From Chitinophagaceae bacterium (lineage in GTDB: Bacteria > Bacteroidota > Bacteroidia > Chitinophagales > Chitinophagaceae): 35,343 bases of DNA. The translations under genes and the position numbers were made by a program. Shown here piece by piece: positions 17,866 through 30,943 of the stretch (positions are counted from its first letter, which is position 1; each line of letters opens with the position of its first letter). Below the pieces are notes generated by a model. The model was not told the DNA's origin. It did no database searches and worked only from the letters and a program-made list of their open reading frames with translations. The stretch is taken from contig JAJTCI010000010.1 of assembly GCA_021323155.1 (NCBI GenBank), positions 1 through 35,343 of the forward strand. The letters are read 5' to 3'.

Positions 17866-20800
17866 TTACTTAATTATCGCCACGTTTCCTTTATAGGTGT
17901 ATGGAATATCATTTTCGCAAACCACCTCGCAGGTGTACACGTACACATCCGGTGGCGCTGGAATTCCTTTTACTTTTCCATCCCATCCCTGGCTGTCGAT
18001 GTTCGGGGTGAAATTTGCTTTCTCGAACACCAGCTGTCCCCAACGGTTGAACACCCTGAAGCTTTTTATTGACTTCACACCTTTGGCGCGAACCGTTAAA
18101 ATATCATTTATACCATCACCGTCGGGTGTGAACGCATTCGGTATGAAAACCTGGGAACTTTCGCAGAATACCTTGATGCAAACACTGTCACTTCCACTGC
18201 ATCCAAAGAAATTGGTAGCGGTAACGTTATAACAGATATCTTTTTTCGCTGTTGCAACCGGTGTTGGGCAGTTTGCGCAGCTCAGATCGTTCGATGGGCT
18301 CCAGGTCCAAAGTGCAATGGGGCCGTTCGTGACAGTGGGTGCAAGGTTCACGAGCGTACCGGTGGCCACGGTGTGATCGGTTCCTGCATTTACCGTAGGA
18401 TAATTACCCACGCCGATGGTCACGTATGCGGTATCCTGGAAGCAGTTGTGGGCATCATAACCAATCACCCGGTAAATAGTGGTGAAAGTGGGACTGGCTA
18501 CCGGGTTCGGGATATTGGTTGCACTTAATCCTGTCGCGGGGCTCCAAACATAGGTGGTGGCACCGGTTGCATTGAGTTGCCTGGTTTGTCCAATACACAT
18601 TACTGCATCCGGGCCTGCAATGACGTCGATTGGTTGCGGCACCGTTATTAAAATGGTATCCCTGCCTGCACAACCGAAACCGTTGTAACCGGTAACCACA
18701 TATTGGGTGGTTGTTACGGGCGAGGCAATTGGGTTCGGGCAGGTAGTACAACTCAGTCCCGTGAATGGTGCCCAGTCATAGGTGAACGCTCCGGTAGCGT
18801 TCAGTTGAGCGGATTGCCCGCGACAGATCTGCATGTTCGGGTTGGTATTGACAGTGGGCGACGGGTTGATCGTAATTGGTTTTGAGGTTGTGTCATAGCA
18901 TCCGAACGCGGTGCCTACGATCAGTTGACCGTTGAACGTGCCGGCGGATCCATAATTATTAATAACAGTTGGTGAATTGCCCGTCGCCCCGTTACTAAAT
19001 GTCCAATTGTAATAGGTGACCGGGTCATTTGAAGTCACCACGGAATTGTAGGTCACCGGTTGATTTACGCAACCGGTATTGTCACTGACGATCGATACGA
19101 TGGGCTTACTGTCCACTTTTACAAAAACCGGGATGTTGACAGTGTCTGCACAGCCACTCACTCCTTGTGCGATCAGTTGTATCGGCCATGTATTTGTTGA
19201 AGTATATACGTGCACCGGGTGTCTTACCGTGCTATTATTTCCATCACCAAAATTCCATTGCCAGCCATTCAGGCCGAAGTATGACCGTGAAGTATCAGTG
19301 AATGCAACGGTAGTGGTTCCACAAGTCTTCACCTGGCTGTAAACAAAACCCGCGCTTACATATTCTACACGGATCGTATCGGGGCCCTGTAACGTTCTGC
19401 GACATGTTCCCCCTGGTGCGGCGATGAGCTGCGCGGTAGGCACATATATTCCCGGCTGGCTGTATACGTGGTATACAATATGAGCAGTAGTTGAGAGAAT
19501 GGTGCCGTCACCAAAGTTCCATCGAATTGAATCAGTGCCGGTAACAACGGCTTCAAATCGCACAGGCCTGTCACCACATATATACCCGTTATCATAAGTA
19601 AATGACCCATTGGGCCCGGCTGTCACGATCTGTTTGGTGGCAGAATAAGTACATCCATTGATATCTCTTGCCGTCATCGTAACCGTGAACGTACCTACCT
19701 GGGTGAAAGTGTGGGTTACTATGTCTCCGGTATCAACATTGCCGTCACCGAAGTTCCAGGTAGTAAGAGAAGAAGGAAGGCTGTGGTTGGTGAACGTTAC
19801 ATTGAATGGTACACAGGTGCTCACCGAATCAGACACTGAGAAAGATCCGGGCAGCGAAGCTACCACCGTCACCTGCTTAATGATGCTATCAGTACAGGCG
19901 TTGCCGGGACCGTATTGGCGGATACCGATCAGTTTAACATCGTAAGTGCCCGGGGTGGTATAAGCGTGCGTCGGGTTGGTGAGTTGAGATGTTATCCCGT
20001 CATCAAAATTCCATAACAAGCCAGTGATGGTATCACTTTGATTGGTAAAGAACAGTGTATCACCCACACAGATCGGTACCGGCATCACGGTAAAGTTCAC
20101 CAATGGTTTCGCGAAGACAGATATGGTTTCTGTGATGGTGGTGTCGGTACAGCCATTGCTCGCCTGGATCGACACATTGAATGTGCCAACTGTCAGGTAA
20201 GTATGCTGGATCGTATCGATATTATTCGTTGTGCTCAGGAGGTTGCCATCGCCGAAGTCCCAAACAAAATTGGTAGCGCCGGTGGAGTTATTGTAAAAGT
20301 TAACTGTATGTGGCGCGCAGCCGGTTTTCTCATTACCGTTCACAGCTACATCCAGCTCAATTGTCCTGGCAGCCACCACCACGTTATACCTGCCTGTATC
20401 GCTACCGCAATCATTGGTGGCAATGAGCCGCACGTCAAACGTATCCTGCTGTGCGGTATTGTAAGTATGCTGAACCGGTAAGGTGTTGTTGGTGAAGAAA
20501 GGCGCGCTGCCATCTCCGAAATTCCATTGGTAGGTCATATTCGCGCCGAGTGAAATATTATTGAACACGACAGTCAATGGAGAACAACCGTAAGTGATGT
20601 TGGGTGTTATGATCGCTTTCGGTTTGGATCTCACCCGAATATCTACCACCTTAATGATCGTATCGCATTGCGTAAACGCCGCGAGTGACACGTGGTATAC
20701 GGTATCGCCTGCAGTGGGATTTGGCTGAAAGATGATCGTGCCCGGGTTTTGCGCGGATGAGATGATGCCGTTTCCGAAATTCCAATTATAGCTGAACTTG

Positions 20801-23800
20801 TCTATCAGTGGCGTAGTGTTGGTGAATGTGACTGACAGCGGCCCGCAACCTACGGTATCGCTCGCGTCAAAATCAGTCACCGGTTTTGGTATCGTATAGA
20901 ACCATCTTTCAGCGCTGTCGTTCTTACAGCCAAACAGGCTGATCGCTTTCATTTTTATATACACCGAATCGCCCGGTGCTACTATCGTATAACCAGGAAA
21001 GGTAGTGCCCGTTCCGATCAGCACGCCATTTGCATACCATTCGTATACGCCATTGCGTGTGGGGTAGAGGACTGGTTGAATTACACTATTGTCAATGTTA
21101 AATGGCGCGCAATCTTCAAATGGCGCATACACATATTCTGCAAGCGCATCCGGGTTGACGAACACTTCAATCAAAGCCCTTGTTCCTTCACAGCCTAATG
21201 GCGTTGCCTGGCTGACATAGTAGTTGGTTACTCCGACAGCGGACGTGGAAGGTACTGGCGCGTTAAGATCCGGTGTACCTCCGGTAGCGCTCGTGTACCA
21301 CCGGAGTGAATTGCCTGGCGCCGGTGTTGCCGTTAGCGGCACAGACAGCGCGTCGATGCAGTAATTAACGGGTGAAGTTACGGCAGGGGCCGCAGGCAAG
21401 GCAGTTACCGTAACCGGTACCGAGGCCTGTGGAGAAACGCAGTTATTCAAAGTCGCGGTCACAAAATATGTCCCGGTATTCACTGCACTCGCGTTGACGA
21501 TCGTTGGGTTCTGCAGGTTACTTGTAAAGCCAGCAGGGCCTGTCCAGGTATAGACAATTGCTCCAGGTGTAGTCGTATTCGCGGTCAGCAATAATGTTTC
21601 ACCGTTACATATCGGGCTGTTGCTTCCCGCGGTAGGTGTTGCAGGAGGATTTGGATCCGCCAGGATAAAAGGTCCTACCGTGTTGGATGGGCAACCAACC
21701 AATGTGGCCACCCTGATACTTGCATAAGTTCCCGCTGTAAGTCCCGGGATGGTCAGTACGCCGCTTCCGTCAGATGTTATCGTCGTCGAAACCGGTGTGC
21801 CATCACGCGTATAAGTCACTGTATAGGCAGTCGAAGCAGACAATCCATTCAATATGATCGAACCGGTGGCGGTCAAACAACCTGTGGGGTTGGTGAACGA
21901 TGGGTTGATAATAACCGGAGTTGGATTGACTACAACGGTAGTGGTGCCTGCAGCCGAAGGGCAATTCCCGGTGAATGCGGTAGCAACCACGTTATACAGG
22001 CCGTTAGCCGCGGTAGTTGCGCCAACGATCGATGGATTCTGTGCGCTGTTGGCAAAACCATTCGGACCGGTCCATGACCAGCTGACTGTTCCGCCGAACG
22101 TTGTTGTCGCGGTAAGGAGCAGTGTGCTGTCTGCGCATATCGGCCCGTTGTTGCCGGCCACCGGGGTAGCAGGTGTTTCATTGATCGTAACATTCACGGT
22201 GCCGGCCGCGGAAACACAACCATCGAGTGTAGCGGTTACACTATACACACCATTAGCAGCCATTATCGCTCCAGGTATAGAAGGATTTTGTTGTGTGCTC
22301 GAGAACCCGTTCGGGCCACTCCAGGTATAAATGATCGCGCCAACCGATGAAGTAGCTGACGTAAGATTGAGCGTATTGCCACTGCAGATCGGGCCATTGC
22401 TTCCGGCTGTTGGTGTGGCGGGGGGATTTGGATCAGTAAGCGTGATCGATGCGATAACATTCGAAGGGCAACCGGTTAGGGTCACGCGTATGTTCGTGTA
22501 GGTGCCCGCTACGAGGTTGTTGATCAACACGGAACCGCCCGCATTGGATGTGATACTAACTGATTGAGGATTCCCGTTGAAATTGTATTGAACCAAATAC
22601 AGGGTGGAAGCCGCTAATCCATTCAAAGTAATGGACCCGGTGGGCGTGGTACACTGCGTTGGATTGGTAAAGCTGGTGGTAGTGATGACGGGAGTAGGAT
22701 TGATCACTACAGTGGTGCTGCCGGTAGCAGAAGGGCAATTCCCGGTAGTAGCGGTAGCTATCACAGTATAAATTCCATTTGCCGCCATCGTGATATTCGG
22801 TATGGAAGGATTTTGAGATATGCTATTAAAGCCATTGGGGCCTGTCCATGACCACGTCATTGTTCCGGCACTGGCGGTAGACGCCGTGAGGTTGAGTGTA
22901 CTGTCTGAACAAACGGGTGAATTGCTTCCGGCTACCGGCATAGCTGGTGTTTGATGTACCACGACATTCACCGTTCCTGCCGCGGAGGTACAACTATTGA
23001 TCGTGACGGCTACGGTATAGGTCCCGGTTGCCGCTGTGGTTACATTGGTGATCGATGGATTCTGATCTGTGCTCACGAATCCATTGGGCCCTGACCAGGC
23101 ATAGCTTGCTGTACCTGGGGATGTAGTGCTCGCGGTAAGATTTAAAGTATTGCCACTGCACACCGGTCCGTTGCTCCCTGCCGTTGGTGTGGCAGGAGGT
23201 GTTGGGTCAACCAGCGTGAATGGCCCGATTACATTCGAAGGGCAGTTGTTCAGCGCTACAGATATGTTGGTATAGGTTCCTGCGGCAAGGTTCGGGATCA
23301 CCAGCGTGCCACCCGCATCTGATGAAAGCGTGGCGGTCTGAGGTGTGGCGCCTTGCGTATAATTCACCGTATAAGAAGTGGAGGGCACAAGCCCTGTCAA
23401 CGTGATCGACCCTGTTGTCGTCGCACAGTTTGTCGGGTTGTTCGCGGTACCGTTAATGTTCGCGGTAGGATTAACAACAACAACGGTTGAACCCGGCGCG
23501 GAGGGGCAGTTCCCTACTGTTGCCGTGGCAATCACATTGTATGTGCCGCCTTCAGCGGTAGTGGCATTACTGATCGTCGGATTCTGAAGCGCGTTACTAA
23601 AACCGTTTGGTCCTGTCCAGGCATATGTTACGCCAGCGGATGGCGTGCTGGCAGTTAAATTGATGGTTCCACCGGAACAAACGGGTGAGTTGCTACCCGC
23701 GGTAGGCGTGACCGGCGTCGCATTCACAGTAACATTTACGGTGCCTGCCCCGGAAGTACATCCATTCAGCGTTGCGGTTACGCTATAGGTTCCCGTTGCA

Positions 23801-26800
23801 GCTACGAGCGCATTGGTGATCGAAGGATTTTGCGTTGTACTGTTGAATCCATTGGGCCCGCTCCAGGCGTAAGTCACTCCGGGTGTTGCAGAGTTGGCGG
23901 TGAGCAGCAAAGTGTTCCCGCTACAAATTGGTGAATTGCTTCCAGTAACCGGTACAGAAGGCGGCGTGGGATCAGAAAGCGTGAAAGGTCCTACGGTGTT
24001 CGAAGGACAATTATTTAATTCCACAAATATGCTGGTATAAGAACCAGCCGGCAGGTTCGTGATCGTGATGGATCCGCCTGCATTAGAAGAAAGCGAGACA
24101 TTTACCGGGTTGCCGTTCTGTGTATAGCGAACGGTGTAGATGGTAGATGCGTTTAAGCCATCCAGGGTGATTGAACCGGTAGACGTTGCACAAGTTGTAG
24201 GATTGACAGTACTGCTTCCACTAATGTTTGGTGTAGGATTTACTGCTACTACTGTAGTGCCTGCGCTTGAGGTACAGGAGCCTAGTGTAGCGGTAACAGA
24301 ATACGTTCCGGCGGCAGCGGTAGTTGCAGTTGCTATAGACGGGTTCTGAACACTGCTTGAAAAAGCATTGGGTCCTGTCCATGCGTAAGTGGCTCCACCG
24401 GTTGTTGTATTCGCGGTAAGGTTCAACGGATTTCCTGAACAGACCGGTGAGTTGCTTCCAGCTATGGGAATGACGGGTGTTTCATTTATCACGGGTGTTG
24501 TTGTTCCTGCCGCGGACGTACAACCATTAATGGTGACCGTTACGGAATATGTTCCAGCTGCGGCGAGCGTCACATTTGTTATGGATGGTGTTTGGCTCGT
24601 ACTGGTAAATCCACTTGGTCCGCTCCATGACCAGGTAGCGGTGCCCGGAGAAGTGGTATTGGCGCTGAGTGCAAGTGTATTGCCACTGCATATGGGCGAA
24701 TTGCTTCCAGCAACGGGAGTTGCAGGAGGTGTTGGGTCGACCAGCGTAACCGGGCCAACAGTATTAGAAATACAACCATTCAAGGTGACGGTGAGGTTAG
24801 CATAGATACCGGCTAAGAGGTTGGGGATCACCAGCGAGCCTGTACCATTACTTGCGATCGTTGCAGGCGTAGCCGGATTCCCATTGAATGTATAGTTGAC
24901 GGTGTAGGTGGTATTGTTTGTAAGACCGTTGAGCGTGATCGACCCGCTTGGGGTAGCGCAGTTAGTAGGATCGGTGCTCGTTGTACCGCTGATGTTTGGC
25001 GTTGGATTGACGATAACGGTAGTCGTTCCTGCTACTGAAGCGCAACTTCCAAGGGTAGCGATCACGGAGTAAACTCCCGCATCCGCAATTGTCACATTGC
25101 TTACTGAAGGATTCTGCACACCACTGTTAAAACCATTTGGTCCTGTCCATGCGTATGTCACACCCGCCGTTGAAGTGTTAGCGACCAGGTTCAGGGTAGC
25201 ACTGGTGCACAGGGGACCATTATTCCCCGCGGTTGGCGCAACCGGTGTCGTGTTGACGACCACGCTGACAGTTCCGGCAGCGGAAGTGCAATTAGCGATC
25301 GTGACAGTTACATTATACGTGCCGGTAGCCGCTGTTGTCGCGTTAGAAATACTTGGGTTCTGCGTATTGCTTGTAAAGCCATTCGGTCCGCTCCAGGTAT
25401 AAGTAGCTACGCCAGGCGATGTAGTGTTTGCATTAAGCGTTAATGTATTTCCCGCGCAAATGGGAGAGTTGCTGCCAACGGTAGGTGTGTTCGGTGCAGT
25501 AGGGTCAGCAAGCGTAACAGGGCCGAACGCATTCGAAGGGCAGGTGCCGAGCGTAACGGTTATATTATCGTATACACCTGCGGCAAGATTTGGTATAACG
25601 ACCTCACCACTTCCATTCGAAGTTAATGAAACCGGTGTTGCCGGATTACCGTTGAAAGTATAGTTGGCCGTATAGGTAGTGTTATTCGCCAGGCCAGTTA
25701 GTGTTATAAATCCTGTAGCCGAAGCACAACTCGTTGGATTTGTCCCGCTTCCACCACCGATTACCGGAGCGGTATTCACGACCACCGTTGTGTTTGTTGC
25801 CGGTGATGGACATCCACCCGCAGTTGTGATCAATGTGTAAACGCCTGCGTTTGCCGGTATGCCATTACTGATGGTCGGGTTTTGTGCATTGCTGGTAAAT
25901 CCATTGGGACCTGTCCAGGAAAAAGTAGCACCTGCGGTTGTGGAGTTACCGGTTAGATTAATTGTTTGACCGCTACAAATCGGGCTGTTACTTGAGGCGG
26001 AAGCATTCACCGGCGGGCGCACGGTTACAATCACCTGTTCGGATTCGCCCGTACACACCGGGGAACCGGGATTATATACTACGATGGTATATGTGACTGT
26101 AACATCAGTTGTGCCTGTATTGGTGAGCGTGTTTACGATCGAGATGGTAGTAGAAGGTGAAGCCTGGTTTGAATTGCCCGTAAGTGTTCCGCCGGCAATG
26201 GATGAGCTCCATGTATACTGTGCCCCCACCAGCGAACTGGTAAGGGAAATGGTGAGTTGTTCACCACTGCATAGTATAGGCGCGGAAGGTGCGGGCGTGA
26301 AATCTGGAATGGGCTTTACGGTTACATCTAAATTGAACGCGTTCCCATTGCAGCCGTTGGCGATGGGTGTGATCACATACCGCACTACCGCGTCAACGCT
26401 CGCAGATGGATTCGTGAGTGCGTCGTTGATCGTTGCACTTGTGCCTGCCGCCGTATTGCCAGTAGCACTGCCGGAAATGACACTGGAGGTCCAACTGAAA
26501 GTACTGGATGGGACAGAAGATGTGATCGTATAATTGAGGTTGCTTCCACTGCAGACCGTTCGCGTGGCAGCGCTGGTGATGTTATTGTCTGGATGGATGA
26601 TGATTTGGACGGTGTCGCGGACCACAGGGCATACAGATCCTGCAGGTGGAGTAGCAGTGTAAATGAGCCGAACTGTGCCATTCGATTTATCAGTTCCACT
26701 AAATGTATAAGCAGGATTTGAAATGTTGGGATTTGAAATTGAACCCGTACCAAAGCCTGGCTGGATACTCCATACCGCGGTGTACCCTGCCGGCCCGGAT

Positions 26801-28758
26801 GAAGATCCGTTGAGATTAACCGAGGCGGTCGAAAAACATACAGCCTCGTCGGTGCCTGCATTCACAGTCACCGGTTGGTAGAACAATATTTGCTGTGTAG
26901 CGGAATCGATCCCGCAATCATTGGTGAATCTTACTTTGACGTTGTAGGTGCCATAGGCATTGAACTGCACTTGTGGATAGCGGGAATTCGCGTCCGTGCC
27001 CCCAACGAATGTGACAGTGCCGGGCGTAAAGGTCCATTGGTATGCCAATGTCCCGGTGTTGACGTTGTACGTTGTTACATGTCCTGGTGAGGTCAGAAAA
27101 TTCAGTGTTTGCAGTCCGCAGTATTGCTGGTTGCCAGGGAGATTCACATCCGCATCCAGCAAGAGAGAAACAGTTCTGTCCCTGGTGAATGTTCCGCAGG
27201 AGTTACTGATCGTTAAGCGGATGATATAATTACCCGGTTCAAGGAAAGTGATCTGCGGAATGGAGTCGGTTGCACTCGGTGTGATGGTATAATGCACACC
27301 CAGGGTTGCCGGCGCAAGAGATGGCGACAACAATACCTGCCAGTTCCAGTTAAAAGGCCTGCACGAGCTGGTATTCGTAAGGTTGGCAATGGTCACCACC
27401 AAAGGCGCACAGCCCGCAAGAGAAGCCTGGCCATTCATCGAAAAGTCCGGCACCGGAACTTCCTCGATACAGATGTACATGGTGGTGTCGTCGCTACATG
27501 GATCGTTCAGTGCCACCAGTTGTACGGAGTGCATACCCGGCGTGGAGAACGAATGTACCAGGTTCGTTGCGCTGCTGGCGAAAGAGCCATCAACGTACCA
27601 TTCGTATAGGGTGGAATTGGTACAGTTCACCGCATTATTGTTCCCGGAAAGCCCGACCTGGGACGTATTGGTGAAGGTGATGTTGGTATTCAGGCAACCA
27701 TAAGTTGGATTGATGAAATTTGCTTCCGGGCGTTCCCATACCTTGGCAAATGAACTGATCGGTGTGAAGCTATTTGAACAAAACTGGTTAGATGCAGTCA
27801 CACTGACGCGAAAGGCATTATACTGGTTCGGCGTGATATCTGTGATAGCAGGTTGTCCACAGGAAGTCTGTGTATATTCATGATCCACCGCCCCGTTGAT
27901 CGTCATTAACTGGCAATGGGTATAGGTGGTTGTGTTGCCGTCGCCCCAGTTGATCGTATAAATAGTTCCAGGGTAATTGTTCTTGATTCCGCCCGCTGCA
28001 GTGGTGTTGATCGTGTATTCTTTCGTATCGGGCAAGCAGATCTCGTTAGAACCTGCGGTTTGCAAGCTCAGGTTACTGGTGGAAGCCAGCACCAGGAAGC
28101 TTTTTATGGAAATGCTGTTATCAGCGTTCCGGATAGTTAGCTGGACGGTGTAATAATTTCCAACCACCATTGTGAAGCTGATGGATGTCGCGCCTACAGT
28201 AGCCGCCACGTTATTTCCAAGGCTATCGAGCACTTTCGCAACAAGCGTTTTACCACCAGGTACAGAGACGCCCAGGTTGAGTGTGGCATTGCTGATGATG
28301 AGACATCTGCCAAAAGTGGAGTCGTTGATCGTATTGGTGGGGCTGGTGGTAGGATTCGTAACCGGCGTGGTGGCAGTGGCAACTATTGTGAACGGGTTAC
28401 TTGTAGCTACCGGTCCTGCGGGGCTGGTAGACACTACCCTCACCCTGTAGTTCCCGCCTGGTGCGGTCCCTGCGGGTATGATGCCGTTGACAAAAGGCGT
28501 AAAGAAGCTGTTATAAGTACCGATGAGTGTGCCCGGAAAATTACCTGCCGCATCCGAAAGGTATAATTGGAAAGTGTTGGCCTGGTTGAAGCAGCCACCG
28601 CTGAGCTGGATGGGTACCGTGATGCCGCCACCGGCACCATATGAAGCCGTACTGAAGTTCGTATTGTCAATAGTAATCGTCTGTGCATCGGCAATAAGCC
28701 CGATTGCGCCCAACACCAGAATGAAAGCCAGTCTTCGAATCAAATTTTTTCTCATCAA
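17866..28758 (-). CDS. Giant multi-domain surface adhesin with Ig-like/PKD repeats and gliding-motility-type (CHU_C, type B) T9SS C-terminal domain
   Basis: 3630 aa uninterrupted ORF; signal peptide ..GLIADA|Q; tandem 'AGSNSPICSGNTLNLTA..YTWSGPNGF..' modules; eight PKD 'WNFGDG'-type modules; C-terminus 'VFIPNAFTPDGDGINDILTVRAKGVKSIKSFRVFNRWGQLVFEK...GNVAIIK'. Confidence 0.95.
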   Translation of the reverse strand: MMRKNLIRRLAFILVLGAIGLIADAQTITIDNTNFSTASYGAGGGITVPIQLSGGCFNQANTFQLYLSDAAGNFPGTLIGTYNSFFTPFVNGIIPAGTAPGGNYRVRVVSTSPAGPVATSNPFTIVATATTPVTNPTTSPTNTINDSTFGRCLIISNATLNLGVSVPGGKTLVAKVLDSLGNNVAATVGATSISFTMVVGNYYTVQLTIRNADNSISIKSFLVLASTSNLSLQTAGSNEICLPDTKEYTINTTAAGGIKNNYPGTIYTINWGDGNTTTYTHCQLMTINGAVDHEYTQTSCGQPAITDITPNQYNAFRVSVTASNQFCSNSFTPISSFAKVWERPEANFINPTYGCLNTNITFTNTSQVGLSGNNNAVNCTNSTLYEWYVDGSFASSATNLVHSFSTPGMHSVQLVALNDPCSDDTTMYICIEEVPVPDFSMNGQASLAGCAPLVVTIANLTNTSSCRPFNWNWQVLLSPSLAPATLGVHYTITPSATDSIPQITFLEPGNYIIRLTISNSCGTFTRDRTVSLLLDADVNLPGNQQYCGLQTLNFLTSPGHVTTYNVNTGTLAYQWTFTPGTVTFVGGTDANSRYPQVQFNAYGTYNVKVRFTNDCGIDSATQQILFYQPVTVNAGTDEAVCFSTASVNLNGSSSGPAGYTAVWSIQPGFGTGSISNPNISNPAYTFSGTDKSNGTVRLIYTATPPAGSVCPVVRDTVQIIIHPDNNITSAATRTVCSGSNLNYTITSSVPSSTFSWTSSVISGSATGNTAAGTSATINDALTNPSASVDAVVRYVITPIANGCNGNAFNLDVTVKPIPDFTPAPSAPILCSGEQLTISLTSSLVGAQYTWSSSIAGGTLTGNSNQASPSTTISIVNTLTNTGTTDVTVTYTIVVYNPGSPVCTGESEQVIVTVRPPVNASASSNSPICSGQTINLTGNSTTAGATFSWTGPNGFTSNAQNPTISNGIPANAGVYTLITTAGGCPSPATNTTVVVNTAPVIGGGSGTNPTSCASATGFITLTGLANNTTYTANYTFNGNPATPVSLTSNGSGEVVIPNLAAGVYDNITVTLGTCPSNAFGPVTLADPTAPNTPTVGSNSPICAGNTLTLNANTTSPGVATYTWSGPNGFTSNTQNPSISNATTAATGTYNVTVTIANCTSAAGTVSVVVNTTPVAPTAGNNGPLCTSATLNLVANTSTAGVTYAWTGPNGFNSGVQNPSVSNVTIADAGVYSVIATLGSCASVAGTTTVIVNPTPNISGTTSTDPTNCATPSGSITLNGLTNNTTYTVNYTFNGNPATPATIASNGTGSLVIPNLLAGIYANLTVTLNGCISNTVGPVTLVDPTPPATPVAGSNSPICSGNTLALSANTTSPGTATWSWSGPSGFTSTSQTPSITNVTLAAAGTYSVTVTINGCTSAAGTTTPVINETPVIPIAGSNSPVCSGNPLNLTANTTTGGATYAWTGPNAFSSSVQNPSIATATTAAAGTYSVTATLGSCTSSAGTTVVAVNPTPNISGSSTVNPTTCATSTGSITLDGLNASTIYTVRYTQNGNPVNVSLSSNAGGSITITNLPAGSYTSIFVELNNCPSNTVGPFTLSDPTPPSVPVTGSNSPICSGNTLLLTANSATPGVTYAWSGPNGFNSTTQNPSITNALVAATGTYSVTATLNGCTSGAGTVNVTVNATPVTPTAGSNSPVCSGGTINLTASTPSAGVTYAWTGPNGFSNALQNPTISNATTAEGGTYNVIATATVGNCPSAPGSTVVVVNPTANINGTANNPTNCATTTGSITLTGLVPSTSYTVNYTQGATPQTATLSSDAGGTLVIPNLAAGTYTNISVALNNCPSNVIGPFTLVDPTPPATPTAGSNGPVCSGNTLNLTASTTSPGTASYAWSGPNGFVSTDQNPSITNVTTAATGTYTVAVTINSCTSAAGTVNVVVHQTPAMPVAGSNSPVCSDSTLNLTASTASAGTMTWSWTGPNGFNSISQNPSIPNITMAANGIYTVIATATTGNCPSATGSTTVVINPTPVITTTSFTNPTQCTTPTGSITLNGLAASTLYLVQYNFNGNPQSVSITSNAGGSVLINNLVAGTYTNIRVTLTGCPSNVIASITLTDPNPPATPTAGSNGPICSGNTLNLTSATSSVGAIIYTWSGPNGFSSTQQNPSIPGAIMAANGVYSVTATLDGCVSAAGTVNVTINETPATPVAGNNGPICADSTLLLTATTTFGGTVSWSWTGPNGFANSAQNPSIVGATTAANGLYNVVATAFTGNCPSAAGTTTVVVNPTPVIINPSFTNPTGCLTATGSIILNGLSASTAYTVTYTRDGTPVSTTITSDGSGVLTIPGLTAGTYASIRVATLVGCPSNTVGPFILADPNPPATPTAGSNSPICNGETLLLTANTTTPGAIVYTWTGPAGFTSNLQNPTIVNASAVNTGTYFVTATLNNCVSPQASVPVTVTALPAAPAVTSPVNYCIDALSVPLTATPAPGNSLRWYTSATGGTPDLNAPVPSTSAVGVTNYYVSQATPLGCEGTRALIEVFVNPDALAEYVYAPFEDCAPFNIDNSVIQPVLYPTRNGVYEWYANGVLIGTGTTFPGYTIVAPGDSVYIKMKAISLFGCKNDSAERWFYTIPKPVTDFDASDTVGCGPLSVTFTNTTPLIDKFSYNWNFGNGIISSAQNPGTIIFQPNPTAGDTVYHVSLAAFTQCDTIIKVVDIRVRSKPKAIITPNITYGCSPLTVVFNNISLGANMTYQWNFGDGSAPFFTNNTLPVQHTYNTAQQDTFDVRLIATNDCGSDTGRYNVVVAARTIELDVAVNGNEKTGCAPHTVNFYNNSTGATNFVWDFGDGNLLSTTNNIDTIQHTYLTVGTFNVSIQASNGCTDTTITETISVFAKPLVNFTVMPVPICVGDTLFFTNQSDTITGLLWNFDDGITSQLTNPTHAYTTPGTYDVKLIGIRQYGPGNACTDSIIKQVTVVASLPGSFSVSDSVSTCVPFNVTFTNHSLPSSLTTWNFGDGNVDTGDIVTHTFTQVGTFTVTMTARDINGCTYSATKQIVTAGPNGSFTYDNGYICGDRPVRFEAVVTGTDSIRWNFGDGTILSTTAHIVYHVYSQPGIYVPTAQLIAAPGGTCRRTLQGPDTIRVEYVSAGFVYSQVKTCGTTTVAFTDTSRSYFGLNGWQWNFGDGNNSTVRHPVHVYTSTNTWPIQLIAQGVSGCADTVNIPVFVKVDSKPIVSIVSDNTGCVNQPVTYNSVVTSNDPVTYYNWTFSNGATGNSPTVINNYGSAGTFNGQLIVGTAFGCYDTTSKPITINPSPTVNTNPNMQICRGQSAQLNATGAFTYDWAPFTGLSCTTCPNPIASPVTTTQYVVTGYNGFGCAGRDTILITVPQPIDVIAGPDAVMCIGQTRQLNATGATTYVWSPATGLSATNIPNPVASPTFTTIYRVIGYDAHNCFQDTAYVTIGVGNYPTVNAGTDHTVATGTLVNLAPTVTNGPIALWTWSPSNDLSCANCPTPVATAKKDICYNVTATNFFGCSGSDSVCIKVFCESSQVFIPNAFTPDGDGINDILTVRAKGVKSIKSFRVFNRWGQLVFEKANFTPNIDSQGWDGKVKGIPAPPDVYVYTCEVVCENDIPYTYKGNVAIIK
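18900..20880 (-). repeat. Eight tandem PKD modules, ~256-nt period
   Basis: 'WNFGDG'-type codons near 18995, 19245, 19508, 19745, 20003, 20252, 20512, 20770. Confidence 0.8.
21635..25484 (-). repeat. Five tandem ~768-nt super-repeats (A-B-C domain cassette) within the adhesin gene
   Basis: The C-module end 'DP(T/N)PPATP' (or variant) encoded near 21635, 22412, 23186, 23951, 24716, 25484; spacings 777, 774, 765, 765, 768 nt, all multiples of 3. Confidence 0.85.
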
Positions 28759-30676: not shown

Positions 30677-30720
30677 AAAAAAATCCGCCAATAACAAACA
30701 CTTGTTCATCATATGGCGGA
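30677..30720 (-). terminator. Rho-independent terminator of the tRNA-Asn unit
   Basis: Minus strand TCCGCCA...TGGCGGA followed by T7 (stem 30684-30690 / 30714-30720; A-run 30677-30683 on plus). Confidence 0.75.
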
Positions 30721-30733
30721 CTTTAAAATGTTG

Positions 30734-30807
30734 CTCCTCAGCCCCGACTTGAACGGGGGACCCTCTGATTAACAGTCAGATGCTCTAACCAACTGAGCTA
30801 CTGAGGA
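30734..30807 (-). tRNA. tRNA-Asn (GTT)
   Basis: Minus: TCCTCAG-TA-GCTCAGTTGGTTAGAGC-A-TCTGA-CTGTTAA-TCAGA-GGGTC-CCCCG-TTCAAGT-CGGGG-CTGAGGA-G; full cloverleaf, anticodon GTT, CCA not encoded. Confidence 0.95.
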
Positions 30808-30830
30808 GTTTGTTATTCCTTTCTTCCCGG

Positions 30831-30886
30831 TGGCCCTCTGATTAATCCCGCACGTGCGGGACTCTAACCATCTGAGCTACCGAGGA
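30831..30886 (-). pseudogene. Degenerate tRNA-Asn-like copy with palindromic anticodon arm and no T-arm or 3' acceptor strand
   Basis: Minus: TCCTCGGTAGCTCAGATGGTTAGAG-TCCCGCACGTGCGGGA-TTAATCAGAGGGCCA; flanks of the palindrome match the adjacent intact tRNA-Asn. Confidence 0.8.
30846..30861. repeat. Perfect 16-bp palindrome TCCCGCACGTGCGGGA
   Basis: Self-complementary by inspection; occupies the anticodon-arm position of the tRNA-like relic. Confidence 0.95.
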
Positions 30887-30913
30887 GTTTCCGAAATGGT
30901 TTTTTCGGGGCAG

Positions 30914-30943
30914 CAAAAATAGGAGATTTTGAATACCTCCCAA
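30914..30943 (-). promoter_or_regulatory. Bacteroidota-type promoter upstream of the tRNA-like/tRNA-Asn unit
   Basis: Minus strand GTTG, with TTG at 30943-30941, then 19 nt and TATTTTTG (30921-30914), fitting TTG-N19-TAnnTTTG. Confidence 0.55.

Follow-up and report, generated by a model that had tools for sequence, protein, structure and literature searches.

What is a tRNA-like relic with a perfect palindrome in its anticodon arm, lying just upstream of an intact tRNA-Asn gene? The relic is found on the minus strand of a 35,343-nt stretch of a Chitinophagaceae bacterium (contig JAJTCI010000010.1, assembly GCA_021323155.1), analysed here at its full length and referred to as the window. The original prediction, made from the letters alone, described a promoter, a leader hairpin, a tRNA-Asn-like 5' half in which CATCTGACTG is replaced by TCCCGCACGTGCGGGA, the retained TTAATCAGAGGG, no T arm, then a complete tRNA-Asn and a terminator. 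All of these are present on the minus strand (Table 1), and its statement that this is the only tRNA in the window is borne out by both ARAGORN and Rfam. For the relic itself it left a choice between a decayed duplicate, a leader or processing signal, and an inserted repeat element.

Table 1. Features of the tRNA-Asn transcription unit in the window
Feature	Position	Strand	Basis
Promoter TTG-N19-TATTTTTG of the tRNA-Asn unit, Bacteroidota type	30914..30943	-	Sequence; TATTTTTG aligned in three unit-less relatives
Promoter sub-parts: TTG, N19, TATTTTTG	TTG 30943-30941; TATTTTTG 30921-30914	-	Sequence
Leader hairpin CCGAAA/TTTCGG	30891..30908	-	Similar hairpin CCGAAATCAAAATCGG at the same-genus empty site (G001)
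tRNA-Asn-derived hairpin-bearing unit, 79 bp, flanked by direct repeats AAACTCCTC	30812..30890	-	Absent at tRNA-Asn in G001, G018 and G015; family members elsewhere
tRNA-derived segment (acceptor 5' strand and D arm), CTCCTCGGTAGCTCAGATGGTTAGAG	30862..30887	-	Compared with the tRNA-Asn downstream of the unit
Hairpin TCCCGCACGTGCGGGA in place of CATCTGACTG	30846..30861	-	Sequence; all slot inserts are hairpins of this type
Retained 3' part of the anticodon arm, TTAATCAGAGGG	30834..30845	-	Sequence
Linker standing where the T arm and acceptor 3' strand would be; its ACCGGG is predicted to pair with CUCGGU	30812..30833	-	Fold prediction
tRNA-Asn(gtt), intact	30733..30807	-	ARAGORN; Rfam RF00005, 68 bits
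Terminator TCCGCCA...TGGCGGA followed by T7	30677..30720	-	Sequence; paired changes in G001

The 10 nt missing from the relic comprise the 5' strand of the anticodon arm and the loop up to the first base of the anticodon, and the palindrome that takes their place is 16 nt long. The acceptor 5' strand and D arm of tRNA-Asn are kept, and the T arm and acceptor 3' strand are gone. With neither an anticodon nor a T arm, and with no call from ARAGORN or Rfam, the unit does not qualify as a functional tRNA, and its predicted fold is one long hairpin (z = -5.1), not a tRNA. The 79-bp unit carries no gene of its own, including the tyrosine or serine integrase of a tRNA-integrated island, and no GIY-YIG nuclease gene lies beside it; the frame through its TTAATCA still reads VAQMVRVPHVRD, with no nuclease attached. 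The closing (outer) stem was considered as a conserved feature of such units and rejected: the stem of the window unit beats all swaps, but specific co-evolution is absent across 28 units (swap test, mean z -0.08).

Comparison with relatives provides an empty site. G001, a genome from the same genus, has the promoter and a leader hairpin like that of the window, with tRNA-Asn coming directly after them and no unit in between, and a MATE gene (Pfam MatE in the window) lies downstream in both genomes; the G001 terminator, TCCACCG...CGGTGGA, differs from TCCGCCA...TGGCGGA of the window by paired changes. The unit is likewise missing at tRNA-Asn in two genomes of the same family (G018 and G015) and in G004. 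Since it is absent from the same tRNA-Asn leader in relatives, the 79-bp unit is gained or lost as one block, an empty site that was seen for the ORF-less unit only, not for the nuclease-bearing form described below. The CCGAAA hairpin near the predicted transcript start was correctly noted, but a similar hairpin stands in the unit-less G001 leader, and it therefore belongs to the leader and not to the unit. An ordinary tRNA at this position in relatives had been proposed as a sign of mere debris; close relatives do lack the unit, but more distant ones carry it, often in tandem.

A wider search of contig records with the DNA pattern TAGAGTCCCGCANNTGCGGGA returned at least 119 matching stretches; the matches listed belong to Bacteroidota, save two Chlorobiota MAGs and one uncultured bacterium, and a few are plain terminators (L063, L067, L125). 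Viral contigs searched with the same DNA pattern gave no match, and a viral origin was rejected on that ground. Such copies occur in about 100 Bacteroidota contigs, as tandem arrays preceding tRNA-Asn, as the terminal part of a GIY-YIG gene of about 100 aa immediately behind it, or as both. The usual order is (copies)n - tRNA-Asn - (GIY-YIG + copy)n, and the GIY-YIG genes, one to three in number, each reach their stop within a hairpin copy. The stop codon of the nuclease is the TAA of TTAATCA, and the protein C-terminus is therefore LAQLVRVPHVRD. The T arm is missing from most upstream copies; those downstream retain the 3' half and, in many cases, the terminator. The relic is one copy of this widespread repeat unit, so that, among the options first offered, the inserted repeat element is the one favoured. 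As a separate observation, some upstream copies have a hairpin in place of D-arm sequence as well (L097, TCCCGAGAATTCGGGA; L158, a GCCTGCC hairpin).

The slot in the anticodon arm was assessed in two ways. In loci picked by their palindrome, it is occupied by an intact arm or by hairpins, including ones with a mutation or two, and by nothing else; given how those loci were chosen, the unbiased test is one that specifies the flanks alone (CAGNTGGTTAGAG N11-30 TTAATCA), applied to 345 genomes of the class. This search found 23 inserts in 14 genomes, every one of them a hairpin, and the reversed-pattern control gave 0. The inserts are 15-17 nt long, with stems TCCCG...CGGGA (once TTCCG...CGGAA) and free loops, and the covariation sought in the palindrome is found among them as paired changes (pair 6 is C-G, A-T or T-A; pair 2 is C-G or T-A). 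To judge from this search, the slot hairpin is not decaying at random and the unit is not debris. With the same insert in the same slot across the phylum, the view that such a palindrome is not expected from random decay stands.

The ORFs linked to these copies belong to the GIY-YIG superfamily (Pfam PF01541, E 1.6e-14), with Y5, Y16, G18, R26, H30 and E64 invariant in 14 sequences. A profile built from 14 tRNA-linked GIY-YIG proteins and searched against genomes of the class has matches in 166 of 246. At 66 of the 90 loci read, a tRNA lies within 135 nt upstream on the same strand (median 49 nt; 16 isoacceptors), and 54 of these 66 tRNA-linked loci hold a copy of the 3' half of the neighbouring tRNA, the terminator flank being copied as well in 37 of 49. 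Identity of the copy is about 85-100% in the T arm and acceptor 3' strand, the D arm is partly copied (in less than half of the units) and the acceptor 5' strand hardly at all. Where the D arm and the 3' half both align, the anticodon loop is kept in none of 26 copies, and 23 of the 26 hold a hairpin that beats shuffles at p <= 0.05. On a nuclease tree of 83 columns, in which single forks are weak, tRNA isotype changes 27 times as compared with 59 when shuffled, and none of 200 shuffles is as low; one Asn group of 24 spans several families of Bacteroidota. A tRNA link of GIY-YIG proteins in general was rejected, since, of the 30 top-scoring Pfam hits in the class, only 3 lie near a tRNA; the tRNA-linked proteins form only a subset.

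The genome of the window itself (G000), 76% complete as assembled, contains one such GIY-YIG gene, situated behind at least three tandem tRNA-like units (locus L365, contig C148:13720-14358). These units are about 116 bp long, each with two TCCCG...CGGGA hairpins and a terminator, and ARAGORN calls none of them. Within this incomplete genome, the exact 16-mer TCCCGCACGTGCGGGA occurs once, in the window.

The full element is a cassette of about 300-450 bp just after an intact tRNA, in which a GIY-YIG gene of about 80-100 aa runs into a partial copy of that tRNA. The copy holds some of the D arm together with the T arm and acceptor 3' strand, and often takes in the terminator; its anticodon arm is lost, and in most cases a GC-rich hairpin stands in its place. 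The relic is probably a solo, ORF-less unit of this Bacteroidota family of tRNA-linked, SegB-like GIY-YIG elements, which would spread and amplify by recombination at tRNA genes. The original prediction did not anticipate the link to a GIY-YIG gene, the range of tRNA types or the copies downstream.

SegB is a free-standing GIY-YIG homing endonuclease of T-even phages; its gene lies among tRNA genes, and the enzyme is implicated in the cleavage of DNA that contains tRNAs (PMC2988022; PMC13096335). The segB locus is amplified in tandem, probably via recombination of a tRNA 5' region with the segB 3' region (PMC13096335). The Bacteroidota elements share with it the GIY-YIG nuclease among tRNA genes and the tandem amplification. 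They differ in residing in bacterial genomes, with none in viral contigs by DNA pattern, in having a bare domain of about 80-100 aa and at least 16 tRNA isoacceptors, and in the 3' end of the nuclease gene being joined to a tRNA copy with a hairpin substitution. By analogy, we infer a mobility in which the nuclease would cut tRNA genes without an element, as phage SegB does, and recombination over shared tRNA sequence would insert the cassette beside the tRNA, leaving the tRNA intact. Recombination of the tRNA copy at the 3' end of the gene with the resident tRNA would yield the observed order, and unequal recombination between tRNA copies could give rise to tandem arrays and to ORF-less units like that of the window. 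By removing the anticodon, the hairpin would leave the element's copy no working tRNA, and it may perhaps also remove the cutting site, sparing that copy from its own nuclease.

Several points count against the SegB-like reading. The outer stem of the units is, as noted above, not generally conserved. The intact tRNA adjoining an element should, on the proposed mechanism, stay a target. The unit of the window has no neighbouring GIY-YIG gene. Finally, the reading does not account for the slot hairpin being nearly always TCCCG...CGGGA, which is also a common terminator stem in the genome of the window; the substituted hairpins share this stem but have no T run.

That stem gives some weight to a small dispersed palindromic element, similar to those of Rickettsia, which would enter tRNA copies by itself, with the GIY-YIG gene incidental. 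In the genome of the window, TCCCG-N5-7-CGGGA outnumbers the reversed control about 20-fold (39 versus 2), and about 32 of 74 downstream copies have a second hairpin of the TCCCG...CGGGA type that takes the place of sequence within or next to the T arm. Most such hairpins read elsewhere in that genome (L366-L379) are, however, intrinsic terminators followed by T runs, and the linkage to the GIY-YIG gene is strong, which makes this explanation unlikely. Somewhat less likely still is a host regulatory or processing leader, in which co-transcribed hairpin units would steer the maturation or level of tRNA-Asn. The units are indeed placed after the promoter and ahead of the tRNA, have strong predicted folds (z -3 to -5) and stand in tandem upstream of tRNA-Asn in several orders, but their number varies from 0 to 6 between species, the unit is missing in the same genus despite the same promoter and leader, and the same hairpin copies are met behind the tRNA too, where the nuclease gene ends in them, and beside other tRNAs. 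The leader or processing role first suggested thus finds no support.

A decayed duplicate, that is, a tandemly duplicated 5' half of tRNA-Asn that lost its function and bears its palindrome by accident, would account for the missing T arm and acceptor 3' strand and for the absence of the unit from sister species. The window copy may indeed be without function today; as the origin of the unit, simple decay is ruled out by the flank-only slot search, in which all inserts are hairpins with paired changes, and since this hairpin recurs at that position in about 100 contigs and for tRNAs of several types, we regard this explanation as very improbable. Equally little probability attaches to an RNA-protein pair, in which a tRNA-like hairpin RNA would partner the nuclease, either as a decoy resembling type III toxin-antitoxin systems or in the manner of a guide RNA, its sequence overlapping the gene at the 3' end: tandem structured repeats before a terminator accompany a small nuclease gene, whose 3' end the putative structured RNA overlaps, but many arrays have no nuclease and many nuclease copies are broken.

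Other known systems resemble the SegB-like elements in part. Integrative elements that target tRNA genes insert in such a way that the tRNA stays whole and its 3' part is duplicated, and the same combination is seen in the Bacteroidota elements, which, unlike such islands, have no integrase, measure about 300-450 bp and hold a copy that often includes the D arm and has lost the anticodon arm. Small bacterial palindromic elements, such as the Rickettsia palindromic elements and REP/RAYT, are short hairpins at recurrent sites, with or without a linked enzyme gene. The Bacteroidota units resemble them in all these respects, having forms with and without a linked enzyme gene, and, unlike them, are tied to tRNA copies and a GIY-YIG gene, with no RAYT transposase seen. 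Small GIY-YIG proteins of the UPF0213 type have size and domain in common with the tRNA-linked nucleases, and to our knowledge no link of these proteins to tRNA has been described. The best PDB matches, 1zg2 (E = 0.004) and 1ywl (only 0.12), both of this type, are weak.

The open-access literature contained no description of the repeat unit, no paper with the tail LAQLVRVPHVRD and nothing relevant on GIY-YIG proteins together with palindromes, tRNA-Asn, Bacteroidetes tRNA genes or UPF0213; the repeat family is apparently undescribed. More tentatively, and with slightly less than even confidence, we suggest that these are undescribed minimal tRNA parasites of Bacteroidota chromosomes: cassettes of about 300-450 bp, with a single-domain GIY-YIG nuclease and an anticodon-less, hairpin-substituted tRNA copy, whose largely isotype-faithful nuclease lineages would home at tRNA genes, with the hairpin shielding the element's own copy and ORF-less units riding along. 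Such parasites would explain the tRNA-encoded tails and tRNA-adjoining position of many small Bacteroidota GIY-YIG proteins, would stand as a bacterial equivalent of phage SegB whose natural targets span at least 16 isoacceptors, and would provide a ready system in which to study how such an enzyme switches from one tRNA target to another. At one locus (L254, G539:C9:905000-912500), ten tandem 457-bp GIY-YIG units stand beside tRNA-Met(cat).

Annotators should be aware that hairpin-substituted copies can be called as tRNAs; at one locus (L217, G009:C20), ARAGORN calls them tRNA-Arg(tct), 82 nt. Elsewhere in the window, an open reading frame of 3630 codons extends over 17866-28758 on the minus strand.
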